Positions 30,535 through 51,038 of a stretch of DNA of 64,000 nucleotides are shown here, one piece after another. The position numbers and the translations under genes were made by a program. Below the pieces are notes generated by a model, which worked only from the letters and a program-made list of their open reading frames with translations, made no database searches and was not told the origin of the DNA. Origin of the DNA: Sorangium aterium (GTDB lineage: Bacteria > Myxococcota_A > Polyangia > Polyangiales > Polyangiaceae); NCBI RefSeq assembly GCF_028368935.1, contig NZ_JAQNDK010000007.1, positions 434,001-498,000 on the forward strand, in the 5' to 3' direction. Every line of letters begins with the position of its first letter. The first letter of the stretch is position 1.

Positions 30535-31470
30535 TCACGGAGGAATCGAGACCGTCGGATAGGCGACGTGATCAACGCCGACATCGTCCACAGGTGTTGT
30601 CTCGAAGCTCCAGGTCCCGCCGGGCGGGATGTCGGCAGCCGCGCTGCTCGTCGCCATGCCCAGCGGCCGTCCGACGCGATTCACCGGGAAGACCGTTATC
30701 TTGGGGTCACTCACGGCCACATCGAGTCGGTTCTCGAGCGTGCCCGTGTAGGCGCTCCCGGCGCCCCTGCGGACGGTCTTCACGTCGCTGACGGTGACGG
30801 CATCGACAGGGACCACGTCCACGGTGAAGGCCGGAAACCTATGCTGCAGATACCCGAGCTCCTCTATCACGAGCTCGCCGGGAAGATCCGTTGAGCCAGT
30901 CATCGCAATCTCGCCCGGAGCGATGCAGGGAATCATCACGCCAGAGCCGTCGTCTATCCGATAGAGCCGGCCGCTGAGCAAGCTACCGCCCCAGGTCGTC
31001 ACGAGCTGATCGGCCTTGTCGATGAAGTAAAACATCAGGCCGGCGTCGCAGGACGGGCTCTCTCCGTCGTTTCTGACAGCGGCGTAGAGCTCGGGACCCG
31101 TCGCCCCCTGCACCAGGGTGAAGGCAACCAGCTTGAGCCCGGCTCCTTCCTCGTCCATCTCGGTGCTGGACAAGCCCGCCGGCACGAAATGCAGGCCCCC
31201 GCCGGGGTCCTCGTCTTTTCCGCCCCCGCCCGTCCCCGAGCCGCTCGAGCCACCTCCCGCCTCGTCGCCGCCCACGCCTCCGCTGCTCGCGGTTCCGCCG
31301 GCTGGCAGGAAAACTCCACCGCTCCCCGACGAGCCGCCACTGGCAGTATCCCCGCCGCTGCCGGGTCCGCTCCCGGCAGTGCCCGCCCCATCATCGAGGG
31401 CGCTCCCCGAGCATGCGAGAGAGAGGGCAAGAGCGACAGCCCCGATGACGACCAAGGACTTTGATTGCAT
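30535..31470 (-). CDS. Gly/Ser-rich lipoprotein A (paralogue of the one at 35584)
   Basis: ATG 31470 gives MQSKSLVVIGAVALALSLAC with a lipobox (SLAC). A 75-residue Gly/Ser spacer follows, and then a C-terminal domain of about 200 residues (LYAAVRNDGESPSCDAGLMF, YRIDDGSGVMIPCIAPGEIA, GSAYTGTLENRLDVAVSDPK, VNRVGRPLG, DIPPGGTWSFET). The domain is beta-rich, similar in type to FxLYD-like fibronectin folds, and has two conserved cysteines. It is clearly homologous to the protein at 35584-36357. It heads away from the DUF1592 gene and shares the 541-bp upstream region with it. Confidence 0.78.
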   Translation of the reverse strand: MQSKSLVVIGAVALALSLACSGSALDDGAGTAGSGPGSGGDTASGGSSGSGGVFLPAGGTASSGGVGGDEAGGGSSGSGTGGGGKDEDPGGGLHFVPAGLSSTEMDEEGAGLKLVAFTLVQGATGPELYAAVRNDGESPSCDAGLMFYFIDKADQLVTTWGGSLLSGRLYRIDDGSGVMIPCIAPGEIAMTGSTDLPGELVIEELGYLQHRFPAFTVDVVPVDAVTVSDVKTVRRGAGSAYTGTLENRLDVAVSDPKITVFPVNRVGRPLGMATSSAAADIPPGGTWSFETTPVDDVGVDHVAYPTVSIPP

Positions 31471-32011
31471 CCGCGCCCTTCCCATCGACCGCGTCGACGA
31501 CGTCGCGAGCCAACCCGGCTATCCGGGCCAGAAATGACCGCCCTCACCGCAGATGACCCGATTGGCGTGGTGGCCCTCACGTCGGGTGATGCGGCGCGTT
31601 GTCCACGAATGAGGGTCAGAATGCCATGGTTGCACATTTGGGGACCTACTGGATTCGTGAGGTCTCTCCACTTCGTGGCGGCCCCGCTCGCCGAAGCGGC
31701 CGAGCAGAGCATGTTTATGGCTCCGATCGCGCCGCCGCGCCGCGTCGCAATGACGCGCCTGACGGCCCCTGCAGTGGCTCGCGGGCGTCGCTGTTCCGCA
31801 GGGAACTCGGCGTTCGCGCGCCTCTCGGGCAGCTTGTCGCGGTCGAAGCGGCATCAGCGCGCCGCTCGTACGCCGGCGTTTCACTCTCACGTCTCCAAGA
31901 GAAGCCGTCGGTCAGGTGCGCGTGATCTCGCGGATGGCGACCTCCGGGTCGACCCATCACTTTTGATCCGCTCCCATGATCACTCGGGCGCGGACCGGGA
32001 ATAGTGAGGTC
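31471..32011. other. Divergent intergenic region of the DUF1592 cluster
   Basis: 541 bp between lipoprotein A and the first DUF1592 gene. Base composition is less GC-extreme than the surroundings. Open frames cross it on both strands, but their translations show no recognisable domain. The promoters of both genes are presumably here; I see no confident sigma-factor motif. Confidence 0.5.
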
Positions 32012-33736
32012 ATGCGAACGTTGCGTCAACTATCGTACATTGGTACGACAACATTTTTGGCGTCATTAACCTTCCTCGCTGGCTGCACTGGCGAGATCGC
32101 ATCCGGTGAGGATGAGGTCACCGGCGGCGGGAATACCACCGGCGGCAGCGGCAGCGGCAGCACCGGTTCGGGGGGCACGGACGAACCCGACAACGGTCCC
32201 CCCGAGGTCTGCATCCCCGGCATCCCGATGACGACCCAGATCCCGCGGCTGCTGAACCGGCAGTACGACAACACGGTGCGGGATCTCCTTGGCGTCACCA
32301 CCGTCGACAGCAAGCTGCCGTCCGAGCAGCTCGTCGACGACTTCGACGGCCCGATGACCCCGGACGCGTGGCGCCTCTATCAAGAGGTCGCCGAGAAGAT
32401 CGCCAAGGCAGTGATGGCCGGGCCGAACAAATCCAAGTTCATCAGCTGCGACCCTTCGGCGGCCGGCTGCTTGGAGCAGACCATCAAGACCTTCGGCCGC
32501 AAGGCGTTCCGTCGCCCGCTGACCGATCTGGAGGTGGCGCGATTCCAGAAGCTGGGCCAGATTACGCCGGCAGGAACGCCGGCCGAGGTCGCCGAGGCAA
32601 CGCTGGTCGGCTTCCTCGTGTCGCCCTCGTTCATCATGCTCCCCGAGCTGGCGACCGACCAGGACGCGTCGGGTCAGGGCATCAAGCTGTCCAGCTACGA
32701 AGTGGCGACGAAGCTTTCGTACCTGCTCTGGGGCTCCGCTCCGGATGAGGTGCTGAGCGCGGCGGCCGACAACAACGAGCTCCAGACCAAGGAGCAGATC
32801 CTGGCCCAGGCGCAGCGAATGATCGCCGTGCGCGAGAAGACCGGGCCGCTCGTGACGTCGTTCCACCGCAACTGGGCGCAGATGAACAACGGAAACGCCC
32901 ACTGGTGGAAGATGGATCACGACACCGAGACGTATCCGCTGTACTCCGACGCCGCCAAGCCCAGCTGGCAGGCGGAGCTCGACTCCTTCTTCGAGGACGT
33001 CGCGTTCGAGGGCGGTTCGTTCGACGACCTCCTCCTCAGCAATGTCGCCTTCGTCAACAAGGACAACGCGGCGATCTACGGGCTCGATCCTGCGAGCTAC
33101 GGCACCGAGCTGACCAAGGTGGAGCTGGACGCCAACGTGCGGCCGGGCTTCCTGACGCGCGTCGGGTTCTTGAGCTCCTACGCGGGCTACGACGCCACGA
33201 GCCCGATCCTGCGCGGCGCGTTCATCTCGGTGTACCTGCTCGGTGTCAATCCGGGGCCGCCCATCCCCGGCGCAACCATGCAGACGGTTCAGGGCGACTT
33301 CGCGACGCAGCGCGCGCGCATCGAGAAGCTGACGGAGCCTGCGACCTGCAACGGCTGCCACTCGATCATCAATCCGCCGGGATTCGTGATGGAGGGCTTC
33401 GACGGCATCGGAAAGTTGCAGACGACCGATCCGCTCGGTGGAGCGATCGACGCGAGCGTCACGACGAACACCATCGACTTCGGCGACGGTAATGTGAAGG
33501 AGATCTCCTCTCCGTTGCAGCTCATGCAGGAGATCACTCAGCTCAAGAAGGCCAAGCAGCTCTACGCCGAGGCGTGGGTCTCCTACGCCTTTGGGCGGGA
33601 TCCGAACGGGAAAGATAAGTGCGTCGTCGATCAGATCGACACCAAGCTGTCTGAGGGTGGCTACAGCATTCTCAACCTGCTGGCCGATCTCACTCAAGCG
33701 GATTCCTTCCGCGTGCGCGTCCGCGAAACGCCGTGA
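32012..33736 (+). CDS. DUF1587-DUF1595-DUF1592-DUF1588-DUF1585 lipoprotein, copy 1
   Basis: A 574-residue lipoprotein (ATG 32012; MRTLRQLSYIGTTTFLASLT, lipobox LAGC, Cys 25). After a Gly/Ser spacer, five domains of the planctomycete/myxobacterial set appear in order. DUF1587 (about 75-95, IPRLLNRQYDNTVRDLLGV). DUF1595 (about 152-182, FGRKAFRRPLTDLEV). DUF1592 (about 198-330, LVSPSFIMLPEL, KLSYLLWGSAPDEVLSA). DUF1588 (about 375-465), with the haem-type motif CNGCH at 446-450 followed by NPPGFVMEGFD. DUF1585 (about 505-570, AWVSYAFGRDPNG ... ADLTQADSFRVR). The CxxCH suggests covalent haem c, but function is unknown for these families. Stop is 19 bp before the DUF1552 start, so the two form an operon. 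Confidence 0.92.
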   Translation: MRTLRQLSYIGTTTFLASLTFLAGCTGEIASGEDEVTGGGNTTGGSGSGSTGSGGTDEPDNGPPEVCIPGIPMTTQIPRLLNRQYDNTVRDLLGVTTVDSKLPSEQLVDDFDGPMTPDAWRLYQEVAEKIAKAVMAGPNKSKFISCDPSAAGCLEQTIKTFGRKAFRRPLTDLEVARFQKLGQITPAGTPAEVAEATLVGFLVSPSFIMLPELATDQDASGQGIKLSSYEVATKLSYLLWGSAPDEVLSAAADNNELQTKEQILAQAQRMIAVREKTGPLVTSFHRNWAQMNNGNAHWWKMDHDTETYPLYSDAAKPSWQAELDSFFEDVAFEGGSFDDLLLSNVAFVNKDNAAIYGLDPASYGTELTKVELDANVRPGFLTRVGFLSSYAGYDATSPILRGAFISVYLLGVNPGPPIPGATMQTVQGDFATQRARIEKLTEPATCNGCHSIINPPGFVMEGFDGIGKLQTTDPLGGAIDASVTTNTIDFGDGNVKEISSPLQLMQEITQLKKAKQLYAEAWVSYAFGRDPNGKDKCVVDQIDTKLSEGGYSILNLLADLTQADSFRVRVRETP

Positions 33737-33755
33737 AAGCTGAGGAAACTTGACC

Positions 33756-35387
33756 ATGAGCAAGCAACTGAACCGCAGAATCTTCCTTCGTGGCCTGGGC
33801 GGAGCCGCCCTGGCTGCGCCGTTCCTCAGCTCCGTGTGGGAGCGCGACGCCAAGGCCCAGAGCGCTTCCGGTGGGAAAGCGTTCATCGTGATGTTCACCC
33901 ACTACGGGTGCGTCACGAACAAGTGGTTCCCCACGAAGACCCAGGGTGAGCTGACGGCTGCCGATCTCGAGTCGACGAGCCTCGCGGCCCTCGCTCCCTA
34001 TGCGAAGAAGCTCCTCATGCCGCGCGGCATCCGCTCGATGAACGAGTGGACCTCCAACATGAAGCGTGGACAGGGGAACGACTCCCACACGCAGATCGTG
34101 GGGTCGTTCTTCACCTGCCAGCCGGTCACTCCGAACAGCAACGACCCGTTCAGCTTCAACCAGGCGACGAAGTTCAACGCGAAGCCTGTCGGTCCTTCGC
34201 TGGATCACGTCATGGCCCAGCAGCTCAGCCTGCAGGGCACGCCGTTGCTCATGGCCACGGCTGGCCAGAACGACAACTCCCAGTCGGCGATCTCCTACTC
34301 CGCCGCCGAGACCATCTACAGGGGCCTCAACGCGTCGCAGGCCTTCAGCAGCCTGACGGGCCTCTTCCAGGCGGGGCAGCCGATGAATCCGGACACCTAC
34401 GCGACGCTCCGTGGCAAGAGCATCCTCGACCTCGTCAAGGATGATCTGCAGACGCTCGAGCGGTTCGATATGAGCCAGGCCGACAAGCGCAAGCTCGCAG
34501 CCTGGAAGGAGCTCCTCAACCAGACAGGGACGGTCGTGGCCTCCGCGCAGTGCAGCGAGGAGCTCGGCGTGATGCTCGGTGCGACGTCCGCGAACGCCTC
34601 CAAGGCGGCGGGCGGTGGCCTGGGCGTCGACGTCCTCACGACCAAGGTCTCCGGCGATCTGGATGGAGCGGATATCTATTCGGCCATCGCGGCGCTCGCG
34701 GCCGCCTGCAACGCCAACCCCGTCATTTTCCTGAAGTACCCGGGAAACTACAATTTCAAGGGGCTCGGCATCACCATGGAGTCGCACTCCCTCTCGCACC
34801 GCCTCGACAATGCAGGTATGACGGGCAGCTGCCTGCCCAACGCGCTCGAGTGGCTCGTCAAGGTGGACACGTATTACGCGCAGAAGTTCGCGAAGCTCGT
34901 CGGAATGCTCGACAGCATCCCCCAGGGGAATGGGCAGACGGTCCTCGACACCAGCGTCGCCATCTGGTTCAACGAGATGTCGGACGGTAACGCGCACAAC
35001 CTCAACAACGCTCCGATCATTCAGGCCGGCAGCGGCGGCGGGTACTTCAAGCAGGGTCAGATCATCAACGTCGACCCCGGGTCGACCCCGACGCAGGGCA
35101 ACAGCCTGTCGCAGTGCGCCAACGGCTCCGGCCAGGTCAACGGTATCAATCAAGGCACCGGGACCGATCCGAAGGTCGGTAACGCGCCGATCAACAAGTA
35201 CTTCTGCAACATCATGAACGCCATGGGTGTGAAGGCGGGTGCGGATGGCTTCCCTGCGAAGGGTGGCTCCGCGGAGGTGACCAAGTTCGGCTATTCCGAC
35301 AAGACGGAAGAGTTCATCGGCGGCAAGGGCGCGGTCGCCGGCGCCTCGATCAAGAATCCGGGCGGGTTCACGGAGCTCAAGGCCTGA
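33756..35387 (+). CDS. DUF1552 protein, Tat-exported, copy 1
   Basis: A 543-residue protein starting at ATG 33756 after GAGGAAA. The twin-arginine signal NRRIFLRGLGGAALAAPFL ends near DAKAQS, so it is exported folded. The DUF1552 domain fills the rest (FTHYGCVTNKWFP, LLMPRGIRSMNEW, GSFFTCQPVTPNSNDPFSF, IKNPGGFTELKA at the end). DUF1552 has no proven activity; its Tat export hints at a bound cofactor or metal. It always follows a DUF1592-type gene in the two-gene cassettes of this window, except copy 2. Closest in-window relative is copy 2 at 39965. Confidence 0.9.
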   Translation: MSKQLNRRIFLRGLGGAALAAPFLSSVWERDAKAQSASGGKAFIVMFTHYGCVTNKWFPTKTQGELTAADLESTSLAALAPYAKKLLMPRGIRSMNEWTSNMKRGQGNDSHTQIVGSFFTCQPVTPNSNDPFSFNQATKFNAKPVGPSLDHVMAQQLSLQGTPLLMATAGQNDNSQSAISYSAAETIYRGLNASQAFSSLTGLFQAGQPMNPDTYATLRGKSILDLVKDDLQTLERFDMSQADKRKLAAWKELLNQTGTVVASAQCSEELGVMLGATSANASKAAGGGLGVDVLTTKVSGDLDGADIYSAIAALAAACNANPVIFLKYPGNYNFKGLGITMESHSLSHRLDNAGMTGSCLPNALEWLVKVDTYYAQKFAKLVGMLDSIPQGNGQTVLDTSVAIWFNEMSDGNAHNLNNAPIIQAGSGGGYFKQGQIINVDPGSTPTQGNSLSQCANGSGQVNGINQGTGTDPKVGNAPINKYFCNIMNAMGVKAGADGFPAKGGSAEVTKFGYSDKTEEFIGGKGAVAGASIKNPGGFTELKA

Positions 35388-35431
35388 GCGCTCTCGGGGC
35401 CAGGTCCTGAACACCCCGACGAGTTCGGGTC

Positions 35432-35462
35432 CAAAGACCCCTTCTTCCCGAAGGGGTCTTTG
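35432..35462 (+). terminator. Rho-independent-type terminator after DUF1552 copy 1
   Basis: CAAAGACCCCTTC pairs perfectly with GAAGGGGTCTTTG (13 bp, 5-nt loop), followed by TGTTTGTG. It is 44 bp after the DUF1552 stop and closes the first cassette. Confidence 0.8.
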
Positions 35463-35583
35463 TGTTTGTGCGCCGTCGGTGACCGCGGGTATCGAGAATC
35501 CGCCGCTCGCTGTGGTGTGTCTCACTTTGCGACTTTGTGCTGCTCGACGATGGCGGACAGCGATAAGCTGGACATCTCTTCTC

Positions 35584-36357
35584 ATGTTCCTGATGGCGAA
35601 GCGTCTCCTCATCCCGGCTGCGGTGCTCCTCCCGCTGGCCTGCTCGAGCGAGGCGAGCGAAGGTGCCGGGGTGGGCGAGGACACTGGTGACGACGCGCTC
35701 GTCGTCCCGGAAGACCTCACGATCATGGCGCTCCCCGGCGGAAACGGCGTGCTCAACGTGATCGCGCTAACTCTTCGCAGAGGGCCGACCAACACCGAGC
35801 TCTACGCCGCCTTGAGGAACGACGGGGATACCCCGGCCTGCAGCGCTGCCCTCTCCGTCGAGCTCTACAACAAGGCCCAGCAGTCCGTGGCATCCGGGAT
35901 CAACGGGCTGCTGACTCAGCATTTCTATCGAGTCACGGACGGCTCGGACGCGATCGCCGCGTGCGTGGGTCCAGGTGACGTGACCATGACCGCGGTGACG
36001 GATCTGCCCTCGGACATCGTGATCGAAGACGTGGGATACGTCGTCTACCGGTGCCCTTACTTTGCCCTCGACGTCGTTCCCATCGATGGCCTCACCATCA
36101 GCGACGTGAAGGCCGTGACGGGTGGCTCCGGCACGGCGTACACGGGCACGCTCTTCAACGGACTCGACGTCGCGGTGAACGATCCCTCCGCCACGGTCTT
36201 CTCGGTCAATCGCGTCGGGCGTCCGCTCGGCGTGGCGATCGCCAGCGGCGCAGTCCAGGTGCCGCCGGGCGGCAGCTGGGCCTTCGAGACGAACACCGTG
36301 GAAACGCCCGGAGCTGATCAAGCCGCATATCCGGCAGGCGCGATGGCAAAGCAGTAG
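35584..36357 (+). CDS. Lipoprotein A', paralogue of 30535-31470
   Basis: About 257 residues starting MFLMAKRLLIPAAVLLPLAC (ATG 35584; ATG 35593 also possible), with lipobox LPLAC. It lacks the long Gly/Ser spacer of lipoprotein A but keeps the same C-terminal domain: ELYAALRNDGDTPACSAALS, YRVTDGSDAIAACVGPGDVT, ALDVVPIDGLTISDVKAVTG, AYTGTLFNGLDVAVNDPSAT, VNRVGRPLGVAI, PPGGSWAFET. The paralogues flank the first DUF1592/DUF1552 pair in opposite orientation. Function unknown, outer surface or periplasm. Confidence 0.78.
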   Translation: MFLMAKRLLIPAAVLLPLACSSEASEGAGVGEDTGDDALVVPEDLTIMALPGGNGVLNVIALTLRRGPTNTELYAALRNDGDTPACSAALSVELYNKAQQSVASGINGLLTQHFYRVTDGSDAIAACVGPGDVTMTAVTDLPSDIVIEDVGYVVYRCPYFALDVVPIDGLTISDVKAVTGGSGTAYTGTLFNGLDVAVNDPSATVFSVNRVGRPLGVAIASGAVQVPPGGSWAFETNTVETPGADQAAYPAGAMAKQ

Positions 36358-36468
36358 ACCATCCCATGAGCCGCTCGGCTAACCCTGACACGAGGCGTTT
36401 CCGAAAAGCAGCCGGCGCCTGCGCGCGTGCAACCCAGGGCACGCGTGTGCGGAGACGCGTCACGCGCG

Positions 36469-36504
36469 GTGAAGGAAGCTGCCGTCGAAGGCAGCTTCCT
36501 TCAC
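36469..36504. terminator. Strong bidirectional hairpin between convergent genes
   Basis: GTGAAGGAAGCTGCC (36469-36483) and GGCAGCTTCCTTCAC (36490-36504) form a perfect 15-bp stem with a 6-nt loop, between the convergent lipoprotein A' and the CX4CH lipoprotein. Confidence 0.8.
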
Positions 36505-36555
36505 GCTGCGCCTGGAGGGCGCCGCAACCCGTCGGCGGCTACTCGCCAAGCACTG

Positions 36556-37122
36556 CTACTCCTGAGCGCCGTCGGCGATCCATTGCGTGAGCGCCTGGAT
36601 GTAGTCCGGGGGTATGCACTTGGAATCCCCATCGTTGACGCATTCAAGGGGCATTCGCGGAGTTGCGCCGCACGGCCCCTTCAGGATCTTGATGAGCCCG
36701 CTCTCTTCCGGATTACCGGGATTGATGAGATCGCCGCAATTCTTGGTTGTGTGAGAGCTCACCCTCGTGTGAAGCTCTCCGTCGATCATCAAGTTCAGGG
36801 GGTTCATGTCGTCGTTATGGCAACCCGCCCCGAAACAGGCGTTTTGTATGACGAACTGCAGCGTCTCGAACGTCGGTTCGATCTCGCTGCCGCTGCCGGT
36901 CGAGCCGCCGTCGCCACCGGTGCTCGCGCTGGTCGAGCCAGCCCCGCCCGAACCGCCGGACCCGACCGCGCTCGAGGTAGACACACTGGCGCTCGTGCTG
37001 CTGGCATCCGTGCCGCCAGCGCCTCCAGCGCCGGTATCGTCAGGGTCGTCGGAGCAGCCTGGAAGCGGTGACAGGACGGCGACGAATGCTACCGCGATGA
37101 AGCTTGAGATTCGAACTTTCAT
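36556..37122 (-). CDS. CX4CH lipoprotein B, putative c-type haem protein
   Basis: A 188-residue lipoprotein (lipobox PLPGC, Cys 23) with a Ser/Gly/Thr spacer and a C-terminal domain of about 100 residues that resembles the planctomycete cytochrome-c (PSCyt1) domain. The haem-like motif is CFGAGCH (C96-x4-C101-H102), four spacer residues instead of the usual two. Downstream GLIKILKGPCG ... TPRMPLEC keeps the Met of an RMP motif, a candidate distal haem ligand, and ends YIQALTQWIADGAQE as in this domain class. Haem binding is inferred. Paralogue at 45287. Confidence 0.82.
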   Translation of the reverse strand: MKVRISSFIAVAFVAVLSPLPGCSDDPDDTGAGGAGGTDASSTSASVSTSSAVGSGGSGGAGSTSASTGGDGGSTGSGSEIEPTFETLQFVIQNACFGAGCHNDDMNPLNLMIDGELHTRVSSHTTKNCGDLINPGNPEESGLIKILKGPCGATPRMPLECVNDGDSKCIPPDYIQALTQWIADGAQE

Positions 37123-37308
37123 GGTTCACGACGAGGATGGTGAGAGAGAAGGTTTAGCTCTCGTTCCCGTTGGATCGAAGCAAAAGGCTTCGAGCTTCGG
37201 AAGGCAGAGGCGACGTGCGATCTCTGACCGCGTCGCCCGTGGGCAAGAGCTGCGCGAGGCGAGAAACGTCCTCTTGTACGGATAGAATGAGCAAACGCGA
37301 GCCGAAAA

Positions 37309-37365
37309 TCAAGCGGTTCGTGGGGGCCATGCTCGTGTACAGCCCTGCTGTACGCGTCGATTGAC
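37309..37365. promoter_or_regulatory. 57-bp element, copy A
   Basis: Layout TCAAGCG, 21 bp, GTACAGC-CCT-GCTGTAC (37337-37353, a perfect 7-3-7 palindrome), 7 bp, TTGAC. The palindrome looks like a dimeric repressor or activator site and TTGAC like a -35 box on the plus strand. Same spacing as copies B and C. Confidence 0.55.
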
Positions 37366-37596
37366 ATTCGTGCCTTGTGCCCTCCAGCCGGTCTCACGTG
37401 TCCAAGAGCGCCTCTCAAGACCACGCGTGACCAGGTTACCAGATAGCCGGGGTCGTGCGCATCGCGTCGTTGCTCCTCGTCGCACCATCTCAGCAGGGCT
37501 CGTCGCCGCGCCTCGCGCTGCGCCCGCGCTCGGCTGCTTGGCTGGGTCCGGCACGAGCCGCGTCGGGGGGCAGGAGATCCAGACGCGAACCGGATG

Positions 37597-37653
37597 TCAA
37601 GCGCCTCGGAGTGGCCGTTTCATCGTACAGCCATGCTGGACGCGCTGGTTGAA
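37597..37653. promoter_or_regulatory. 57-bp element, copy B
   Basis: TCAAGCG (37597), 21 bp, GTACAGC-CAT-GCTGGAC (37625-37641, one mismatch from palindrome), 7 bp, TTGAA. It lies 83 bp upstream of the SPINDLY-like start, in the orientation that would place TTGAA as a -35-like box for it. Confidence 0.55.
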
Positions 37654-37735
37654 CTACAAACCGCCTTGCGCCCAGCGCCCGGGCGCAGCCATCCTTCGCA
37701 GCGACGACTCGCACTCCTCCGACAAGGAGCTCCCC

Positions 37736-39799
37736 GTGACCGCCGCTTCGCTCTTCGAATTGGCAGTGCAGTTTCATCGAGCCGGGCAAGTCGATCGAGC
37801 AGAGCTCCTCTATCGCGGCGTGCTCGAGCAAGCGCCCGGGCATGGCGATGCGCTGTTTCTCCTCAGCGTGCTCGCCGCCCAAGCCGGTCGGCTCGCGGAG
37901 GCTGGCGGGCTCCTCGAGCGAGCCGTCCGCGTCGCCCCGAACAACGCCCTCTACCTGTCGCATCTCGGCGACGTATATCGCTGTCTCGGCCGGAGACCCC
38001 AGGCGGTCGCCGTGCTGCTCATGGCCGTCGCTCGAAAGCCCGACTTCGCCGAGGCGGTGTTCAACCTCGCTCTCACGTTCGAGGAGCAAGGCGACCTGGA
38101 TGCGGCGGCGGTGTGCTACGAGCGCGCCCGCGATCTCGAACCCGGCTTATTGCAGGCGGGTGAGCGCCTCGCGAGCCTGAAGGGCAAACGGGACGCGTCG
38201 GCCGCCGGGGTCGGTCCGGCAGCGGCGCGCAGCCCCGAATCGAGCTTGAGCGCGTCCGACGCCCTGGCGGCCCTCGGCGAGACGCTGCGCCTCGGCGGCC
38301 GGCCGGACGACGCCGCGGTCTGGTACCGCGTGGCGCTGAGGCTGAATCCGCGGATGGCGAACGCGTACACTGCGCTCGGCGCGATTCACGCGGACGCAGG
38401 ACGCTTCGACGAGGCGATCGACGATCTGCGTCGAGCGCTCGAGATCGACCGGAGCTTCCATGTCGCTCGGGAGTACCTCGCCACCGCGCTCGGCGAGTCG
38501 GGGCTCCTCGACGAGTCCCAGGCGATGTACCGCGAAGCCGTCGCCCTGTGTCCCGACGATCCCGCTGCTCACAGCGCTCTTCTCTTCAACATGCCGTTCT
38601 GGCCGAACGTCACCGAGAGCGACATCCTCGCCGAGGCGCGCGCGTGGAATGCGCGGCATGCCCGCCCCCTCGCCGCGCAGGCTCCCCCACACACAACCGA
38701 TCGCTCCCCCGACCGGCGGCTCCGCATCGGTTACGTGTCACCCGACTTCCGAACCCACGTCCAGTCTCTCTTCACGATCCCCCTGTTCCAGAACCACGAC
38801 CACCGGCAGTTCGAGATCTTTTGCTACTCGAGCGCGGACAGGCCGGATAACCTGACCGAGCGCATCCGCGGATACGCGGATGTTTTTCGCGAGGTCGCCG
38901 CCCTGGACGACGCTGCCCTGTCCGAGGTCATCCGACGGGATCGGATCGATATCCTTGTCGACCTCACCATGCACATGACCGACCGCCGCGTTCTGGTCTT
39001 CGCCCGCCGGCCCGCGCCCGTTCAGGTGTGCTGGCTGGCGTACCCCGGGACGACGGGCCTCGAGTCGATGGACTATCGCCTGTCCGATCCCTTCCTCGAT
39101 CCCCTCGACGCAAAAACGGACGTCTACTCGGAGGAGACCCTCCGGCTCCCCGACTCCTTCTGGTGCTACGACCCGCTCACCGACGTACCCGACGTGAGCT
39201 TTCTCCCCGCTCTCGCGGAGGGGAGAGTCACCTTCGGCTGTCTGAACCACTTCAGGAAGGTGAATGAAGGGGTGCTTCGCGTCTGGGCGAGGGTTCTGGC
39301 CGCGGTGCCCAGGTCGCGGCTCACGCTCATGGCGCCTCAGGGAAGGGCGCGGGACCGGGTGCGCTCGATCCTCGCGGAAGGGGACGTCCAGCTCGATCGG
39401 ATCGAGTTCGTCGATCGGTGCGGGCGGCTCGACTACCTGCGAAGGTACCGCGAGATCGACGTCTGTCTCGATACGTTCCCTTCCAACGGCCACACCACGA
39501 GCCTGGACGCGCTGTGGATGGGCGTACCGATGGTGACCCTCGCAGGTGAGACCGTGGTCGGCCGCGCCGGCGTCTGCCAGGCGATGAACCTGGGCCTGCC
39601 GGAGCTCATCGCGACGACTCAGGAACACTACGTTCGGGTCGCCAGCGCGCTCGCCGGGGACCTCGAGCACCTGGGCGAGCTTCGCCGCACGCTGCGCGAT
39701 CGCATGAAGCGATCGCCGCTCATGGACGGCCCGCGCTTCGCCCGCAACCTCGAGTCGATCTACCGCGACATCTGGCGCCGGTTCTGCGCTCGAACCTGA
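37736..39799 (+). CDS. SPINDLY/OGT-type (GT41) TPR glycosyltransferase
   Basis: Likely transfers a sugar (GlcNAc or fucose in known relatives) from a nucleotide-sugar to Ser/Thr of cytoplasmic proteins. GTG 37736 has AAGGAG upstream; the frame stays open to 37361 without conserved content. About 300 residues of TPRs (e.g. ELAVQFHRAGQVDRAELLYRG) precede a GT41 catalytic region (about 330-687). That region has RIGYVSPDFRTHVQS, VTFGCLNHFRKVNEG, the UDP-binding stretch CLDTFPSNGHTTSLDALWMG and LAGETVVGRAGVCQAMNLGL. 687 residues is normal. It interrupts the duplicated DUF1592/DUF1552 cluster. Confidence 0.92.
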   Translation: MTAASLFELAVQFHRAGQVDRAELLYRGVLEQAPGHGDALFLLSVLAAQAGRLAEAGGLLERAVRVAPNNALYLSHLGDVYRCLGRRPQAVAVLLMAVARKPDFAEAVFNLALTFEEQGDLDAAAVCYERARDLEPGLLQAGERLASLKGKRDASAAGVGPAAARSPESSLSASDALAALGETLRLGGRPDDAAVWYRVALRLNPRMANAYTALGAIHADAGRFDEAIDDLRRALEIDRSFHVAREYLATALGESGLLDESQAMYREAVALCPDDPAAHSALLFNMPFWPNVTESDILAEARAWNARHARPLAAQAPPHTTDRSPDRRLRIGYVSPDFRTHVQSLFTIPLFQNHDHRQFEIFCYSSADRPDNLTERIRGYADVFREVAALDDAALSEVIRRDRIDILVDLTMHMTDRRVLVFARRPAPVQVCWLAYPGTTGLESMDYRLSDPFLDPLDAKTDVYSEETLRLPDSFWCYDPLTDVPDVSFLPALAEGRVTFGCLNHFRKVNEGVLRVWARVLAAVPRSRLTLMAPQGRARDRVRSILAEGDVQLDRIEFVDRCGRLDYLRRYREIDVCLDTFPSNGHTTSLDALWMGVPMVTLAGETVVGRAGVCQAMNLGLPELIATTQEHYVRVASALAGDLEHLGELRRTLRDRMKRSPLMDGPRFARNLESIYRDIWRRFCART

Positions 39800-39964
39800 G
39801 GCGAAGGCCGCTCGACGAACGCGCCCGGCCGGACGAATTACAAATACGTTCGCGGGCCCGCGGGGATTGCAGGGGTGATGGAGAGGTGGCACGCGCGGGC
39901 ATCCGGAGGGCGTTCCGGGTGGCAGCCGGGCGGCTACTTCCATTGAAGCGAGAAAAGTACGACC

Positions 39965-41599
39965 ATGGCAAAGCGTGTGAACCGAAGAATTTTCCTCCGG
40001 GGGCTGGGCGGAGCTTGCGTCGCGGCGCCGTTCCTCGGCTCGCTCACCGACCGCACCGTGATGGCGCAGCCGGTCACGCCACCGAAGCGGCTGATCGTGA
40101 TGTACACGCACTATGGCTGCATCACGACGCGGTGGTTCCCGAGGAAGTCGCACGGCCCGCTCACCGCCGCGGACCTCCAGTCGACGACGCTCAAGCACCT
40201 GGCGCCGTACGTGGACAAGCTCCTCATGCCCCGAGGCATCCGCGCGATGAACGAGTGGACGGTGGGGCTGGAGCGGGGGCAGGGGAACGATCGCCACTTG
40301 CAGGTGAACGGGTCGTACTTCACTTGCCACCCGGTCACTCCCAACAGCGACGACCCGTTCAGCTTCGACCAAGCGACGAAGTTCAACGCCAAGCCGACCG
40401 GTCCCTCGCTGGACCACGTCATCGCGCGACAGCTCAGCCCGCAAGGCATTCCGTTGCTCTTGAACACCGCTGGTCAGAATGACGGCGCTTTCTCGGCGAT
40501 CTCCTACTCCGCCGCCGAGACCCTCTTCAAGGGCCTCAACGCGTCGCAGGCCTTCAGCAGCCTCACGGGCATCTTCGAACCGGGGAAGCCGACGTCTCCG
40601 GACACCTACGCGGCGATGCGCGGCAAGAGCGTCCTCGACATCGTGAAGGATGATCTGCAGAGGCTCGAGCGGCTCGACATGAGCCGTGCCGACAAGCAGA
40701 AGCTCGCGGCCTGGAAGGAGCTCCTCGACGCGACAGGAAGCGTGGTGGCTTCATCGCAGTGCGACGCCTCCCTCGCCATGGCGCTCGGCGCGACGCAGGA
40801 GAACGTCGACCTGGCGAGCACGACCCCGAGCGTCGACGACCGGCTGACGCGGCGAATCTCGGATGGTCTGGACGGAGCGGACCTCCATTCGAACCTCGCC
40901 GTGCTCGCGGCGGCGTGCAACGCGAACCCTGTCATCTTCCTGAAGTACCCCGGGACCTTCCTGTTCAAGGGGCTCGGCCTGGAGTACGAGAGCGCCAGTA
41001 TCTCGGGTCGCCTGGACAGCGCGAACATCACGGGGACCTGCGTCCCGGGGGTGCTCGACATGCTCCTCAAGATCGACGACTACTATGCGAGGAAGTTCGC
41101 CCACCTCGTCGGCCAGCTGAACCGTATCGACGAGGGGGACGGGACGCTCCTCGACAACTGCGCGGCGGTCTGGTTCCAGGACGTGTCGGACGGCTGCGCC
41201 CGCAACCTCAACAACATGCCGATCCTCCAGGCCGGCAGCGCCGGCGGCTATTTCAAGACCGGCTGGGCCGTGAACGTCGACGACGGCTCGCCCGATCTAA
41301 CGACCGGCAACAGCGAGATCACGTGTGCCCCTGGCACGTCGGACCAGGTCGACGGGGTCTCCCAGGAAACGGGGACCGATCCGTCGCTCGCCAACGCGCC
41401 GATCAACAAGTACTTCTGCAACTTGATGAACGCCCTTGGCGTCAAGGCAGGCACGGATGGTTTCCCGGCAAAGGGCGGTTCGGAGCCGGTGACCCACTTC
41501 GGCAGGTACGACCGGACGGAAGACTTCATCGGTGGCGGGACCAATCCTTCCACCATCCACGATCCAGGCGAGTTCACCGCGCTCAGGGCGAACGCCTGA
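39965..41599 (+). CDS. DUF1552 protein, Tat-exported, copy 2 (no DUF1592 partner upstream)
   Basis: 544 residues, ATG 39965. Twin-arginine signal NRRIFLRGLGGACVAAPFLG. Domain landmarks match copy 1: YTHYGCITTRWFP, LLMPRGIRAMNEW, GSYFTCHPVTPNSDDPFSF, NAPINKYFCNLMNALGVKAG, IHDPGEFTALRANA. Some stretches are almost identical to copy 1 at DNA level (around 34310-34440 versus 40500-40620), so duplication or gene conversion is recent. Unlike copies 1 and 3 it is preceded by the glycosyltransferase gene (165 bp away), not by a DUF1592-type gene, and it is followed 240 bp later by DUF1592 copy 2. Confidence 0.9.
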   Translation: MAKRVNRRIFLRGLGGACVAAPFLGSLTDRTVMAQPVTPPKRLIVMYTHYGCITTRWFPRKSHGPLTAADLQSTTLKHLAPYVDKLLMPRGIRAMNEWTVGLERGQGNDRHLQVNGSYFTCHPVTPNSDDPFSFDQATKFNAKPTGPSLDHVIARQLSPQGIPLLLNTAGQNDGAFSAISYSAAETLFKGLNASQAFSSLTGIFEPGKPTSPDTYAAMRGKSVLDIVKDDLQRLERLDMSRADKQKLAAWKELLDATGSVVASSQCDASLAMALGATQENVDLASTTPSVDDRLTRRISDGLDGADLHSNLAVLAAACNANPVIFLKYPGTFLFKGLGLEYESASISGRLDSANITGTCVPGVLDMLLKIDDYYARKFAHLVGQLNRIDEGDGTLLDNCAAVWFQDVSDGCARNLNNMPILQAGSAGGYFKTGWAVNVDDGSPDLTTGNSEITCAPGTSDQVDGVSQETGTDPSLANAPINKYFCNLMNALGVKAGTDGFPAKGGSEPVTHFGRYDRTEDFIGGGTNPSTIHDPGEFTALRANA

Positions 41600-41839
41600 G
41601 CGGTCTCGTTCCCGAGCCTGTCGCGCGCTCGAGTGATGAGTGCGCCGCGTGGGCCCGGTGCTCCGGCGCTCCGCGCTCATGACACGTTCTCGTAGAGTCA
41701 TGCGCGAAGATTCTGCCGCGCGAGCGGCCGCAAAAGCGATTGCGGGCGCCAACTCACCGAATCGGGGGCTTGCTGGTTGTGCCGCGTTGGAATCCTGCGC
41801 TAGGGGATCAGTTCTGTGCGGGTCGGGGATAGTGTCGTT

Positions 41840-43546
41840 ATGCGAACGCTGCGGCAACTAGCGTACATCGGTACGGCGACATTTTTGACGTCATCAACTT
41901 TTCTCGCTGGTTGCACTGGCGAGATCGCGCCCGGTGAACCGGGGGTCTCCTCCAGCGGTGGGGAGACCTCTGGCGCCGGTACGGGGGGCGGACCGGAGGA
42001 GCCGGACCCCGGCGACCCGGATGTCTGCACCCCCGGCATATGGGCGACATCCCAGGTCCCGCGGCTCTTGAACCGGGAGTACGACGCGGTGGTGAGGGAT
42101 CTGCTCGGCGTGACGAACCTGCCGAACGCCCCCACGGGCAACCCGTCCTCGCTCCTCGTGGCCGACTTCGAGGGCAGCATGACGGATATCGCCTGGAACT
42201 CCTACCTCGTGACTGCCGAGAGCATCGCCGCCGAGGTGATGGCCGGGGCGAACAAGTCCAAGTTCATTGCCTGCGATCCGGCCGCGGCCGGGTGCCTCGA
42301 GTCGACGATCCGCGCTTTCGGCCGCAAGGCTTTCCGCCGCCCTGTGACGGACGAAGAGGTGCAGCGCTACATGCGCTTCAACACGCTCGAGCCCAAGGGC
42401 ACGCCCGCAGAGGTCGCCGAGGCCATCCTCTTCGCCATGCTCGCTTCGCCCTCGTTCATCACGGTCCCCGAGCTGACGGACGACGCGGAGAGCGGCGCCA
42501 TCCAGCTCTCCAGCCACGAGGTGGCGACGAGGCTCGCGTTCCTGCTCTGGGGCTCCATTCCAGACGACGCCTTGAACACGGCCGCAGACGCCGGTCAGCT
42601 CACCACCAAGGAGCAGATCCTCGCGCAGGCGGGGCGGATGGTCCAGGACCGCGCCAAGACGGCGCCGATCGTGGCCCTGTTCCATCGTGCTTATGCGGAC
42701 ATTCGTCAGGGGTCGCACTGGGGAACGGTCGAGCACGACACGACCCGGTTCCCCGACTACTCCCCGGACATCGTTGCTCCGATGCTGGCCGAGATCGACG
42801 CCTTCTTCGAGGAGGTGGCGTTCGAGGGGGGGTCGTTCAAGGACATCTTCCTGAGCAACGTCGCTTACGTCAACAAGGACACCGCTCCGATCTACGGGCT
42901 CAACGCCGCGGACTACGGCGCGGAGCTGACGCGGGTGGAGCTCGACCCGACCGAGCGGCCGGGGTTCTTGACCCGCGTTGGGTTCTTGAGCTCCTACTCG
43001 TCCTTCGGCGCCACGAGCCCGATCCTCCGGGGCGCGTTCGTCTCCAACAGGCTGCTCGGGCTCACCCTGAAGCCGACGCCCGGCGCGGACCAGACGCCGC
43101 GGCCGCCGGGCCCGTTCTCCACGGAGCGTGAGGCCATCGAGGCGCTGACCTCCCCTGCGGGGTGCGTCGAATGCCACAGCAAGTTCGTCAACCCGCCGGG
43201 CTTCGTGCTCGAGAGGTTCGACTCCCTTGGCAAGGTGCAGACGAAGGATCCGCTCGGCGGTGACATCGACGCGACGGGCGACGTCTACTTCAGCGACACC
43301 AACACCAAGGCGATCACGACGCCCCTGGAGATGATGACCGAGCTCGGCGCGGGGGAGATCGCCAAGCGTCACTATGCCGAGCAGTGGGTCTCCTGGGCTC
43401 GCCGGAGGGTGCCGAACACGAACGACGCCTGCACCGTCAACGAGCTCAGCGACAAGCTGTCCAACGACGGCTACACCATCATCCATCTGCTCACGGATCT
43501 TACCCAGGCCGACTCGTTCCGCCTGCGCACCATCGTCGGGAACTGA
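41840..43546 (+). CDS. DUF1587-DUF1595-DUF1592-DUF1588-DUF1585 lipoprotein, copy 2
   Basis: 568 residues; ATG 41840 (MRTLRQLAYIGTATFLTSST, lipobox LAGC), with start region nearly identical to copy 1. Same domain order: RLLNREYDAVVRDLLGV (DUF1587), FGRKAFRRPVTDEEV (DUF1595), MLASPSFITVPEL and RLAFLLWGSIPDDALNT (DUF1592), FLTRVGFLSSYSSFGATSPI followed by haem motif CVECH (442-446) and NPPGFVLERFD (DUF1588), and WVSWARRRVPNTNDAC ... LTDLTQADSFRLR (DUF1585). Stop is 14 bp before DUF1552 copy 3, an operon like that of copy 1. Confidence 0.92.
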   Translation: MRTLRQLAYIGTATFLTSSTFLAGCTGEIAPGEPGVSSSGGETSGAGTGGGPEEPDPGDPDVCTPGIWATSQVPRLLNREYDAVVRDLLGVTNLPNAPTGNPSSLLVADFEGSMTDIAWNSYLVTAESIAAEVMAGANKSKFIACDPAAAGCLESTIRAFGRKAFRRPVTDEEVQRYMRFNTLEPKGTPAEVAEAILFAMLASPSFITVPELTDDAESGAIQLSSHEVATRLAFLLWGSIPDDALNTAADAGQLTTKEQILAQAGRMVQDRAKTAPIVALFHRAYADIRQGSHWGTVEHDTTRFPDYSPDIVAPMLAEIDAFFEEVAFEGGSFKDIFLSNVAYVNKDTAPIYGLNAADYGAELTRVELDPTERPGFLTRVGFLSSYSSFGATSPILRGAFVSNRLLGLTLKPTPGADQTPRPPGPFSTEREAIEALTSPAGCVECHSKFVNPPGFVLERFDSLGKVQTKDPLGGDIDATGDVYFSDTNTKAITTPLEMMTELGAGEIAKRHYAEQWVSWARRRVPNTNDACTVNELSDKLSNDGYTIIHLLTDLTQADSFRLRTIVGN

Positions 43547-43560
43547 GGAGGAATACGACC

Positions 43561-45156
43561 ATGATGAAGAACCTCAACCGAAGAGTATTCCTCCGAGGCC
43601 TGGGTGGAGCTGTCGTCGCTGCACCTTTCCTGGGCTCTGTCGCCGAGCGTGACGCGGAGGCGCAGTCGGCCGGCGGCGGCGCCCCGAAGCGGCTGATCGT
43701 GCTCTTCACGCACTATGGCTGCCTGACGAACCGTTGGTTCCCGAAGAAGTCCCACGGCGAATTGACCGCCGCCGATTACGAGGCGACGACGCTCAAGCAC
43801 CTCGCTCCCTTTGCAAAGAAGCTCCTGATGCCCCGTGGCATCCGGGCGATGAACGAGTGGAGCTTCGGGCGGACCCACGGCCAGAACAATGACCCGCACG
43901 GTCAGGTCATGGGGTCGTATTTCACCTGCTACCCGGTGACGCCCGAGAGCGACAAGTTCAACGCGAAGTCGACCGGGCGGTCGCTCGATCACATCGCCGC
44001 GGAGCAGGTCAACCCCAACGGCGCGGCTCCCCTCGTGATGCAGATCGGCGGGGTGCGGCAGGATTCTTTCTCCAATTTCTCGTACGACCAGCCCAAGCAG
44101 ATCTTCCCTGGCATCGGGTCTCCGACGACGATCTACAACAACCTCACGGGCCTCTTCGGTCAAGGCCCCGTGTCGCAGGATACGTACAAGGTGGCCCGCG
44201 GCAAGAGCGTGATCGACGTCGTGCGGGAGGATCTGGAGTCCTTCGAGAGGGTCAGGATGAGCAAGGCGGACAAGCAGCGGCTCTCCGACTGGAAGGACCT
44301 CCTCCACCAGACGACGAACACGGTCAGGGCCCAGTGCAGCGCCGCCCAGGCAGAGGCGCTCGGTTTGACGGCCCAGTCCGTGCAGGCGGCCTCGCAGGGG
44401 GGTGGCCTCGGCGTCGACCTGTCGAAGTCGACGAACGTCATGATGGACCTCGCGGTGCTCTCGGCCATCTGCGACCAGAACCGCGTCATCTTCATGAAGT
44501 TCCCCGGGGGCGTCACGTTCAAGTGGGGTGGCATCAACCACTCGAAGGACTCCCATGGCATTTCCCACCGCGTCGGCGACGCCAACATGGGCGGGGACTG
44601 CGTTCCTGGTGTCATCGAGATGATTCACGAGATCGACGACTGGTACGCGAAGAAGTTCGCCTACCTCGTCGGTCGGCTCGACAGCATCGACGAGGGCGAC
44701 CGGAAGCTCCTCGACAACACCGCGACCGTCTGGTTCCAGGAAGACTCCGACGGCAACAGCCACAACCTCAACAACCTCCCGATCCTCCAGGCGGGGGACT
44801 GCGGCGGCTACTTCAAGGTGGGCCAGGCCGTGAACGTCGAAGGTGGCAAGGCTGACCTGGCCGTCGGCAGCAGCGAGGCTGCCTGCGGACCGGGCCAGAC
44901 GAAGCTCGACTTCGCCGCGATCGATGGCACAGGGACTCCGCCGGATGTCGCCACGCAGCCGATCAACAAATACTTCTGCAACCTGCTGAACGCCATCGGG
45001 GTGAAGGCTGGCGCGGACGGCTTCCCGGCGATCGGCGGCTCGGCAGAGGTGACCTGCTTCGGCAAGCACGACGACACAAAGCTCTTCGTCAGCGAGAACA
45101 ACCCAGTGTCCATCAAGGATCCTGGTGAGTTCAAGATGCTCCGCGCGAACGGCTGA
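43561..45156 (+). CDS. DUF1552 protein, Tat-exported, copy 3
   Basis: 531 residues; ATG 43561 after GAGGAGG, second ATG follows directly. Twin-arginine signal NRRVFLRGLGGAVVAAPFLG. Shares FTHYGCLTNRWFP, LLMPRGIRAMNEW, GSYFTCYPVTPESD and IKDPGEFKMLRANG with the others, but lacks about 10 residues of the NDPFSF segment and is the most diverged copy. Second gene of the second two-gene cassette. Confidence 0.9.
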   Translation: MMKNLNRRVFLRGLGGAVVAAPFLGSVAERDAEAQSAGGGAPKRLIVLFTHYGCLTNRWFPKKSHGELTAADYEATTLKHLAPFAKKLLMPRGIRAMNEWSFGRTHGQNNDPHGQVMGSYFTCYPVTPESDKFNAKSTGRSLDHIAAEQVNPNGAAPLVMQIGGVRQDSFSNFSYDQPKQIFPGIGSPTTIYNNLTGLFGQGPVSQDTYKVARGKSVIDVVREDLESFERVRMSKADKQRLSDWKDLLHQTTNTVRAQCSAAQAEALGLTAQSVQAASQGGGLGVDLSKSTNVMMDLAVLSAICDQNRVIFMKFPGGVTFKWGGINHSKDSHGISHRVGDANMGGDCVPGVIEMIHEIDDWYAKKFAYLVGRLDSIDEGDRKLLDNTATVWFQEDSDGNSHNLNNLPILQAGDCGGYFKVGQAVNVEGGKADLAVGSSEAACGPGQTKLDFAAIDGTGTPPDVATQPINKYFCNLLNAIGVKAGADGFPAIGGSAEVTCFGKHDDTKLFVSENNPVSIKDPGEFKMLRANG

Positions 45157-45200
45157 TCGTCGCTCGGGCCGGGTCGACCCGCTTGAGCGGAATGCAAGAA

Positions 45201-45223
45201 GGCTCCTCGTGAAGGGAGGGGCC
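45201..45223. terminator. Hairpin after DUF1552 copy 3
   Basis: GGCTCCTC and GAGGGGCC pair over 8 bp (one G-U) with a 7-nt loop and are followed by TCCTTTC. It lies between the convergent DUF1552 copy 3 and CX4CH lipoprotein B'. Confidence 0.5.
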
Positions 45224-45286
45224 TCCTTTCATCAGCACGACGTCGCGGAGCTCCAGGGCGGAGCCCGCGTCGTCGTCATCGGCCGC

Positions 45287-45856
45287 TCACTGCGGCGCGC
45301 CGTCCGCGACCCACTGCTCGATCGCATCGATGTATTCCTGGAGCAAGCAAGTGTATTCCGGGCCGGGCACGCCGACGCATCCGTTGGGCATGCGGGCGAT
45401 GTTCCCGCAGGGGCCTTTCAGGATCTTGACGAGGGCGCTCTGTTCCGGCTCGCCGGGGGTGACGAGCGGAATGTCTCCGCAAGCCTCGGAGATGTGCGTC
45501 GTCAGGGTCGTGTAAAGGGTGTTGTCGTCCACGAGCGTCGGTTTCGCCTCGCCGTTGTGGCAGCTCGCAGTGGAGCAGCCAGCTTGCGCGACGACCGCCC
45601 GGACCGTCTCAAAGGTCGGGTCGACCGCCGGGCCGCCACCACCGGTGCCAGCGGAGCTCGAGCTGGAGGCCGTGGCCCCTCCGGCGCCATCCCCGCCCGA
45701 GCCCTCCCCGCCGGACGTGGATGCACTCGAGCTAGACCCTCCACCGGTCGTGCCGGCTTCCGAGGTGCCGGCGCTTCCATCGTCGGAGCAGCCTGAAAGA
45801 GGGGACAGGAGGGTGACGATCGCTGCGGCGGCGTAATTTGAGAATCGAAGTTTCAT
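45287..45856 (-). CDS. CX4CH lipoprotein B', paralogue of 36556-37122
   Basis: 189 residues, lipobox PLSGC (Cys 23), Ser/Gly spacer, then the same domain: PTFETVRAVVAQAGCSTASCH with C94-x4-C99-H100, SALVKILKGPCG, ARMPNGC (candidate distal Met) and YIDAIEQWVADGAPQ. The four-residue spacing between the cysteines is kept in both paralogues, so it is not a sequencing error. Closes the duplicated cluster on the right. Its upstream region aligns with that of lipoprotein B. Confidence 0.82.
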   Translation of the reverse strand: MKLRFSNYAAAAIVTLLSPLSGCSDDGSAGTSEAGTTGGGSSSSASTSGGEGSGGDGAGGATASSSSSAGTGGGGPAVDPTFETVRAVVAQAGCSTASCHNGEAKPTLVDDNTLYTTLTTHISEACGDIPLVTPGEPEQSALVKILKGPCGNIARMPNGCVGVPGPEYTCLLQEYIDAIEQWVADGAPQ

Positions 45857-46340
45857 GGATCGTGATTAAAGTGGTTGGAGAGAAAAGTATAGCTCTCTCT
45901 CTCTCACTTGTTGGGACCAAAGGAGAGGCTTCGAACCGTCGGACCTTCAAGGCGAAGCACGATCGATGAATGGATCTGATGAAGCCAAACTTTTGTGAGC
46001 ACGTCGCCCGTGTCCCCGGCGGCTCGCTCGGTGGGGCGCTGAGCGAGGCCAGAGGTGCCGTCCGGGGTGGGTAGGACGAGCAAGAGCGTTTGAGAATCAA
46101 GCGGTTTGTCATGGCACTCCTCGCATCCAGCGATGCTGTACGTGCCGATTGACGTACATGCTTGATCCATCAAGCCGGTCTCGACTGTCAAAAGTGCTTG
46201 CAAATGCCGTCGCTTCGGGGTGCGTCGTCGAGCGCTGGAGTCGCGGGCGGCTGCTCGGCGCCGTCGGGCGCAGCCGAGCACGTCGAGCGTGGCGAGGACG
46301 CGATGTGGCCTGGCGCGAGCAGGGTGGGTACCCTTCGCCC
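45857..46340. other. 484-bp intergenic region upstream of lipoprotein B' and the rhodanese gene
   Basis: The first 300 bp are homologous to 37123-37395 (shared patches such as GGCTTCGA, CGTCGCCCGTG, ATCAAGCGG and AGCCGGTCTC). It carries the third 57-bp element. Promoters for both divergent genes are presumably inside. No gene seen. Confidence 0.55.
46097..46153. promoter_or_regulatory. 57-bp element, copy C
   Basis: TCAAGCG (46097), 21 bp, ATCCAGC-GAT-GCTGTAC (46125-46141, left arm with two changes), 7 bp, TTGAC. Same internal distances as copies A and B. Confidence 0.55.
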
Positions 46341-50951: not shown

Positions 50952-50965
50952 TTCGGTCCTATCGG

Positions 50966-51038
50966 TGGAGCTGAGGGGGATCGAACCCCTGACCTCATGA
51001 CTGCCAGTCATGCGCTCTCCCAGCTGAGCTACAGCCCC
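50966..51038 (-). tRNA. tRNA-Ala (anticodon GGC)
   Basis: 73-nt cloverleaf. Acceptor stem GGGGCTG/CAGCTCC (one G-U), D arm GCTC-AGCTGGGA-GAGC, anticodon arm CATGA-CTGGCAG-TCATG, T arm AGGGG-TTCGATC-CCCCT, discriminator A. The anticodon GGC reads GCC/GCU alanine codons. CCA is not encoded. Confidence 0.97.

Follow-up and report, generated by a model that had tools for sequence, protein, structure and literature searches.

The GC-poor centre of a 64,000-nucleotide stretch of Sorangium aterium DNA (contig NZ_JAQNDK010000007.1, positions 434,001 to 498,000 of the forward strand; henceforth the window, in whose coordinates all features are given) holds two cassettes, A and B, each combining a DUF1592-type lipoprotein gene, a DUF1552 gene directly downstream of it, an FxLYD-domain lipoprotein gene and a gene for a predicted c-type cytochrome lipoprotein with a CX4CH haem motif. 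We propose, with a probability of about one half, that the products of each cassette make up a redox module, exported and anchored in the membrane, that takes part in the breakdown of plant polysaccharides, with hemicelluloses or other glycans containing uronic acids as the likeliest targets. The region stands out by composition, with a GC content of 64–68% over 30.5–46 kb against 72–75% in its flanks.

The finding belongs to a large known family. Among named genomes, those of Sorangium cellulosum are closest to the host. Its own genome of 13.5 Mb carries 25 full DUF1592 genes and 30 DUF1552 genes, of which one is broken into two parts, and DUF1552 was found in 71 of 140 genomes across the phylum. 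Of the 30 host genes, 24 are immediately preceded by a DUF1592 gene, as is DUF1552 at 28 of 29 loci in other Myxococcota, and the same pairing is seen in nearly all loci of the Planctomycetes-Verrucomicrobia-Chlamydiae (PVC) group and the Acidobacteria. With so many pairs in the host and in other Myxococcota, the window therefore contains two units of a genome-wide family. Several unusual arrangements were also encountered among these loci. A DUF1552 gene split in two, possibly through a frameshift, has as its neighbour a cytochrome protein of the di-haem DHOR/cbb3 type that contains three CXXCH motifs (L047:4290-5962 and L047:1907-4186). At L030:15548-17476, a DUF1552 domain is preceded in one open frame by an incomplete N-terminus of the DUF1592 type, in a cluster that also has genes of glycoside hydrolase (GH) families GH10, GH16 and GH62 and a GH43 gene with a carbohydrate-binding module (CBM), CBM6. 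In So0157-2, the product of a gene downstream of a DUF1592-DUF1552 pair (L137:10032-11408) has a weak Pfam match to copper type II monooxygenases.

Cassette A comprises PSD1 (32012–33736, + strand), DUF1552-1 (33756–35387, +), FxLYD-B (35593–36357, +) and CX4CH-1 (36556–37122, −), and cassette B comprises FxLYD-A (30535–31485, −), PSD2 (41840–43546, +), DUF1552-3 (43561–45156, +) and CX4CH-2 (45287–45856, −); a third DUF1552 gene, DUF1552-2 (39965–41599, +), lies between CX4CH-1 and PSD2. PSD denotes the five-domain body DUF1587-1595-1592-1588-1585, which in PSD1 is matched in order and above cut-off by PF07626, PF07637, PF07631, PF07627 and PF07624; in PSD2 the last four are above cut-off and PF07626 (DUF1587) scores 19.1 bits (cut-off 23). 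The Pfam scan detected no CBM in either protein. All three DUF1552 genes match PF07586 with E-values of 1e-42 to 1e-58 and 146–196 bits (cut-off 30), those of DUF1552-1 and DUF1552-3 being 3.9e-48 and 1e-57. An earlier note, made from the sequence alone, had listed these genes, every one of which is present, and had assigned a lipoprotein or twin-arginine translocation (Tat) signal to all products of the cluster except a glycosyltransferase. This agrees with the lipoboxes FLAGC, LSPLPGC, LSPLSGC, LSLAC and LPLAC and the Tat motifs NRRIFLRG and NRRVFLRG that we read in the sequence, with Tat signals on DUF1552-1 and DUF1552-3. It had also described two paralogous Gly-rich lipoproteins; the two indeed share an FxLYD domain (NF038353, E = 3e-7 in FxLYD-A and 8.8e-6 in FxLYD-B), but only FxLYD-A is Gly-rich.

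Haem-like motifs had been noticed in four products, CNGCH in PSD1, CVECH in PSD2, CFGAGCH in CX4CH-1 and CSTASCH in CX4CH-2, and at the level of sequence this holds. The CXXCH motif of the C-terminal PSCyt3 segment occurs in 115 of 116 DUF1592 proteins, and its second Cys and His are invariant among 77 homologues. Across the 30 members of the CX4CH family, some of which have CXXCH instead, the Cys and a Pro are invariant, and the His and the Met of a Met-Pro pair, the likely axial ligand in CX4CH-1, are conserved in at least 90%. Against solved c-type cytochromes, the family profile matched an iron-oxidation cytochrome named FoxE in the PDB (E = 9.4e-9), the hydrazine synthase alpha subunit (1e-5) and the cytochrome subunit of fructose dehydrogenase (0.004); PSCyt1 was matched by nine of the 30 members. 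This conservation, together with the profile matches, rules out chance occurrence of the motifs, and the CX4CH lipoproteins are predicted to be monohaem, PSCyt1-like c-type cytochromes of the His/Met type.

A comparison of domain architectures suggests where these cytochromes belong. In 28 of 29 DUF1592 proteins from the PVC group and Acidobacteria a cytochrome domain is fused N-terminal to DUF1587, against none of 57 from the host and other Myxococcota, in which no CXnCH motif was found upstream of the five-domain body. When a profile of the 28 fused N-terminal domains was compared with that of the CX4CH family the match was 89%, against 14% for a PSCyt3 segment used as control; with only three fused domains the same comparison gave 2.7%. 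Because of this fusion pattern and the profile match, the most plausible view of the CX4CH lipoprotein is that it corresponds, as a separate protein, to the cytochrome domain that planctomycete DUF1592 proteins carry fused.

The predicted structure of DUF1552-3 (pLDDT 89.1) has the fold of the alkaline phosphatase superfamily. It aligns with sulfatases, EptA, MCR-1 and ENPP with Z-scores of 14.8–16.4 over 250–280 residues at 3.6–4.5 Å, and 460 of the 622 chains compared reach a Z of at least 8, the best being 16.4. Foldseek alone returned weak scores, yet almost exclusively to members of this superfamily. In the numbering of DUF1552-3, the conserved positions are H112 (97%), S/T140 (100%), D142 (100%), H331 (88%), H335 (93%), D384 (97%) and H400 (94%), and DUF1552-1 keeps all four histidines. 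As far as the topology of the model allows equivalences to be drawn, H331, H335 and H400 would match the three ligands of metal site 1 of the superfamily, and His112 would stand at the start of the candidate catalytic helix, where its members have Ser, Thr or Cys. The metal-ligand Asp that in the superfamily follows the first strand, likewise placed by topology, is absent, Asp or Glu being present in 0–3% of 116 sequences at residues 46–55. PDB sequence searches with DUF1552 or DUF1592, as single sequences or as profiles, yielded no convincing relative, and the model of PSD1 (pLDDT 88.7) had no convincing fold match in the PDB. Its best match, to phycobilisome linkers (Z 5.1, 108 residues, 4.3 Å), lies in the range of unrelated helical matches and was rejected; it falls on residues 79–211, the DUF1587/1595 part, and may be due to chance.

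The two cassettes are, judging from their identities, old paralogues that were brought together, each with its own orthologue in another Sorangium. The products of cassette A (PSD1, DUF1552-1, FxLYD-B and CX4CH-1) are 74, 83, 82 and 69% identical to those of a locus in So0008-312 (L120), and the products of cassette B (FxLYD-A, PSD2, DUF1552-3 and CX4CH-2) are 75, 73, 83 and 57% identical to those of a locus in So ce26 (L131). FxLYD-B is 82–85% identical to its counterparts in L120 and a further locus, L110. Inside the window, by contrast, the paralogues are 58% (PSD), 52% (DUF1552), about 50% (FxLYD) and 42% (CX4CH) identical. Because the identity to orthologues in DUF1552 and DUF1592 (73–83%) exceeds that between paralogues (52–58%), a recent local duplication is ruled out, as it is by the tree, and the earlier suggestion that the duplicated arrangement reflects selection for dosage is not borne out. 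Comparison with clusters of other Polyangiales, which the earlier note had proposed, found the cassette with FxLYD and CX4CH genes kept in six Polyangiaceae loci (L117, L118, L124, L127, L128 and L136) besides the Sorangium loci L120 and L131; among the loci compared, this form was seen only in Myxococcota.

The cassettes are, moreover, nested. FxLYD-A was assigned to cassette B because its orthologue in So ce26 (75% identical in amino acids, 85% in DNA) sits beside cassette B there; in L131 some 0.75 kb separates the FxLYD gene from the PSD gene, against 10 kb in the window, where cassette A, the glycosyltransferase gene and DUF1552-2 divide cassette B into two parts. The DNA alignments run accordingly, from 31862–37422 of the window to L120 and from 30539–31471, 41806–45224 and 45279–46006 to L131. 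Insertion of cassette A, the glycosyltransferase gene and DUF1552-2 into cassette B would explain this most simply; a possible alternative is loss in So ce26, the comparison having one outgroup. No exact shared word of 11 or more bases, as a direct repeat would leave, was found at the edges of the putative 10-kb insertion, and within the stretches compared neither L120 nor L131 shares the flanks of the window. In So ce26, a group II intron reverse transcriptase/maturase (L131:10328-11608) is encoded between the orthologues of DUF1552-3 and CX4CH-2.

DUF1552-2, which the earlier note had correctly listed as an extra DUF1552, belongs to a third lineage that it had missed and that has mostly lost the conserved histidines. 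The HxxSH motif that names the family, present in DUF1552-1 and DUF1552-3, is ASISG in DUF1552-2, and DGxxH has become DGCAR. The gene lies in a conserved 1.8-kb unit (39808–41623) with 89–91% DNA identity to two further copies in the host (L044 and L048) and one in So0008-312 (L111); PSD2 begins 0.2 kb downstream of it, and the gene was nevertheless classed as solo because its relatives stand alone. In the subfamily, His is lost in 10 of 14 DUF1552 genes without an upstream PSD and in one of 26 with one (Fisher p = 1.1e-5, the genes being related and hence non-independent). In the tree, 13 of the 14 solo genes form one clade (97/91) with a single PSD-linked gene (L112), with one or two changes of state. 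The reading frames of the solo lineage are open, and its ratio of nonsynonymous to synonymous substitution rates (dN/dS) is 0.59–0.73 against 0.37–0.46 for the orthologues of DUF1552-3 and DUF1552-1, values from the Nei-Gojobori method that are biased by high GC, so that the comparison alone counts. The open frames and raised dN/dS therefore point to a relaxed or changed constraint on a protein that would still be made. DUF1552-2 is a candidate pseudo-enzyme: it probably has no enzymatic activity of the kind expected of the other two, and would rather serve in binding or as a scaffold, or be a protein whose constraint has relaxed. Two of the solo, His-less copies stand beside genes for large Kelch-repeat proteins of the galactose-oxidase central domain type (L044:2751-5615 and L048:1453-4188).

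The link to polysaccharides comes from the genes that neighbour these modules. In the host, neighbours of DUF1592-DUF1552 pairs include GH43, GH62, GH10, GH16 and GH44 enzymes, CBM6 and ricin-type lectins. Of the orthologous Sorangium cassettes, L120 has a CE15 glucuronoyl esterase beside it, L110 a protein resembling alginate lyases and L131 a CBM_4_9 protein; near related cassettes elsewhere there are GH88, GH67, CBM9 and a sugar dehydrogenase family (GSDH). With the sizes of two contigs approximated, five of the 19 genes of families GH43 and GH10 are found at most 7 kb from these loci, where 0.56 would be expected (p = 0.001, or p = 0.013 after cluster merging). A further strand is the parallel with Cbp2D of Cellvibrio japonicus, in which a c-type cytochrome, X183, is combined with DUF1587 and with X132, which carries a second CXXCH (PMC8981238). 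The envelope redox or surface-degradation role first suggested for the set thus gains support from haem-motif homology, export signals, this parallel and the polysaccharide-enzyme neighbours. In the module as we picture it, DUF1552 would bind substrate and metal at its His site and perform the chemistry, the haem of DUF1592 would exchange electrons with it, and the CX4CH cytochrome, which together with DUF1592 would correspond to one fused protein in planctomycetes and verrucomicrobia, would connect this haem with the respiratory chain or with some other acceptor; the approximately 25 modules per genome would have diversified for different substrates.

Several observations weigh against this proposal. 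GH43 and GH10 were picked for the proximity test only after they had been seen near the loci, and a held-out test with GH5 and PL1 was non-significant (none of 13 genes within 7 kb; p = 0.06 at 25 kb). No carbohydrate-active enzyme (CAZyme) was found beside the window's own two cassettes. The DUF1552 model has a fold in common with the alkaline phosphatase superfamily, not a function, and the likeness to Cbp2D rests on equating X132 with DUF1595/1592/1588/1585, as domain order and the published DUF1587 annotation would suggest. A rival reading is general extracellular or periplasmic electron transfer, such as metal or quinone redox or the disposal of respiratory electrons in biofilms, that is not tied to polysaccharides. 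Haem proteins and export signals alone would suffice for such a role, FoxE is the best solved match of the CX4CH profile, and many modules, those of the window included, have no CAZyme neighbour. We nevertheless consider it an unlikely, if serious, candidate, given the obligate pairing with an alkaline-phosphatase-fold protein bearing conserved His and the recurrence of xylan- and uronide-enzyme neighbours in several genomes. It is very improbable that the system donates electrons to lytic polysaccharide monooxygenases (LPMOs), as proposed for Cbp2D: CjX183 reduces LPMOs in vitro (PMC8981238), but the X183 domains of Teredinibacter failed to reduce their cognate LPMO (PMC10916295), and this partner was set aside since the host genome has no AA10 LPMO (PF03067).

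A further alternative concerns DUF1552 itself. The Z of 15–16 at which its fold matches sulfatases, phosphoethanolamine transferases and ENPP, and the gene neighbourhoods of Verrucomicrobia in which PSCyt and sulfatase genes frequently adjoin (PMC5615132), would agree with an ordinary hydrolase of the sulfatase or phosphodiesterase type, the cytochromes being separate or regulatory. We regard this as rather improbable, as the first-strand Asp is absent, His takes the place of Ser, Thr or formylglycine Cys at the would-be nucleophile helix, and a cytochrome pairing of this kind would be unexpected for a simple hydrolase. A bolder version of the redox proposal makes DUF1552 a redox enzyme in which the alkaline-phosphatase fold bears a metal site made of histidines alone where the hydrolytic site would be, with the paired DUF1592 and CX4CH cytochromes supplying or removing electrons; Sorangium, having no AA10 LPMO, would use some 25 diversified copies for oxidative attack on plant polysaccharides; in this specific form it is a speculation that we hold to be quite improbable.

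Of the remaining features of the window, the glycosyltransferase, a tetratricopeptide repeat and GT41 protein (37361–39799, +; PF13844, E = 2e-62), has no export signal and an ambiguous start codon (37361, 37649 or later). DNA homologous to its gene is missing from the orthologous cassette loci, which leaves a role as part of the module unsupported. An imperfect repeat of about 70 nucleotides (family D13), which contains a GTACAG...CTGTAC palindrome, lies upstream of CX4CH-1 (37304–37373), with a second copy (74%) upstream of CX4CH-2 (46092–46161) and a further one at 37592–37661. The region upstream of the CX4CH genes that holds it is conserved in L110 and L120, and the repeat is possibly an operator or an RNA hairpin. 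The reading frame at 45904–46770 (−) appears to be non-coding, and a tRNA-Ala (GGC) gene lies at 50964–51038, some 5 kb beyond the right-hand end of the low-GC stretch.

DUF1592/DUF1552 pairs recur in Planctomycetes, Verrucomicrobia, Acidobacteria and Myxococcota, with up to about 25–30 copies per genome and no known function. To this picture the present analysis adds the nested origin of the cassettes, the split of the cytochrome from DUF1592, the DUF1552 fold with its altered site, the His-less solo lineage, a source of natural point mutants of the putative active site, and the link between redox proteins and polysaccharides. The DUF1552 fold, the relation between CX4CH and fused cytochromes and the parallel with Cbp2D together offer a testable hypothesis of a widespread cytochrome-coupled system for plant polysaccharides.

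Very few papers in the literature searched mention DUF1552 or DUF1592, and the earlier statement that the families lack an established function is close to correct as far as the Pfam families go; it does not extend to DUF1587, which is annotated in Cbp2D (PMC8981238), a protein that, like Cbp2E, is important on insoluble cellulose (PMC12542752). CBM2 is combined with DUF1592 in a Cellvibrio protein that figures in a protein table of a lignocellulose community (PMC6004670). The products described here resemble Cbp2D and the Teredinibacter proteins TERTU_2913 and TERTU_3803 in having a monohaem His/Met cytochrome (X183 in those proteins), a C-terminal domain with one CXXCH (X132, which is without a characterised homologue; PMC10916295), export and a link to insoluble polysaccharides (PMC8981238, PMC12542752, PMC10916295). 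In PSD1, too, DUF1587 is followed by a CXXCH domain, and together with the CX4CH cytochrome this parallels the X183-DUF1587-X132 layout of Cbp2D. They differ from Cbp2D in that the Sorangium cytochrome is encoded by a separate lipoprotein gene, the protein has no CBM, a DUF1552 partner adjoins and the host has no AA10 LPMO. DUF1552 shares its modelled fold with the sulfatases, EptA/MCR-1 and ENPP, and departs from them in having no first-strand Asp and in its histidines at 112, 331, 335 and 400. Closest in architecture are the PSCyt1-PSD-PSCyt3 proteins of Planctomycetes and Verrucomicrobia, described in the latter with CBMs and conserved neighbours and without a known function (PMC5615132): they have the same five-domain body, the PSCyt3 CXXCH and an adjacent DUF1552, and differ in that the N-terminal cytochrome, a separate protein in Myxococcota, is there part of the same polypeptide.

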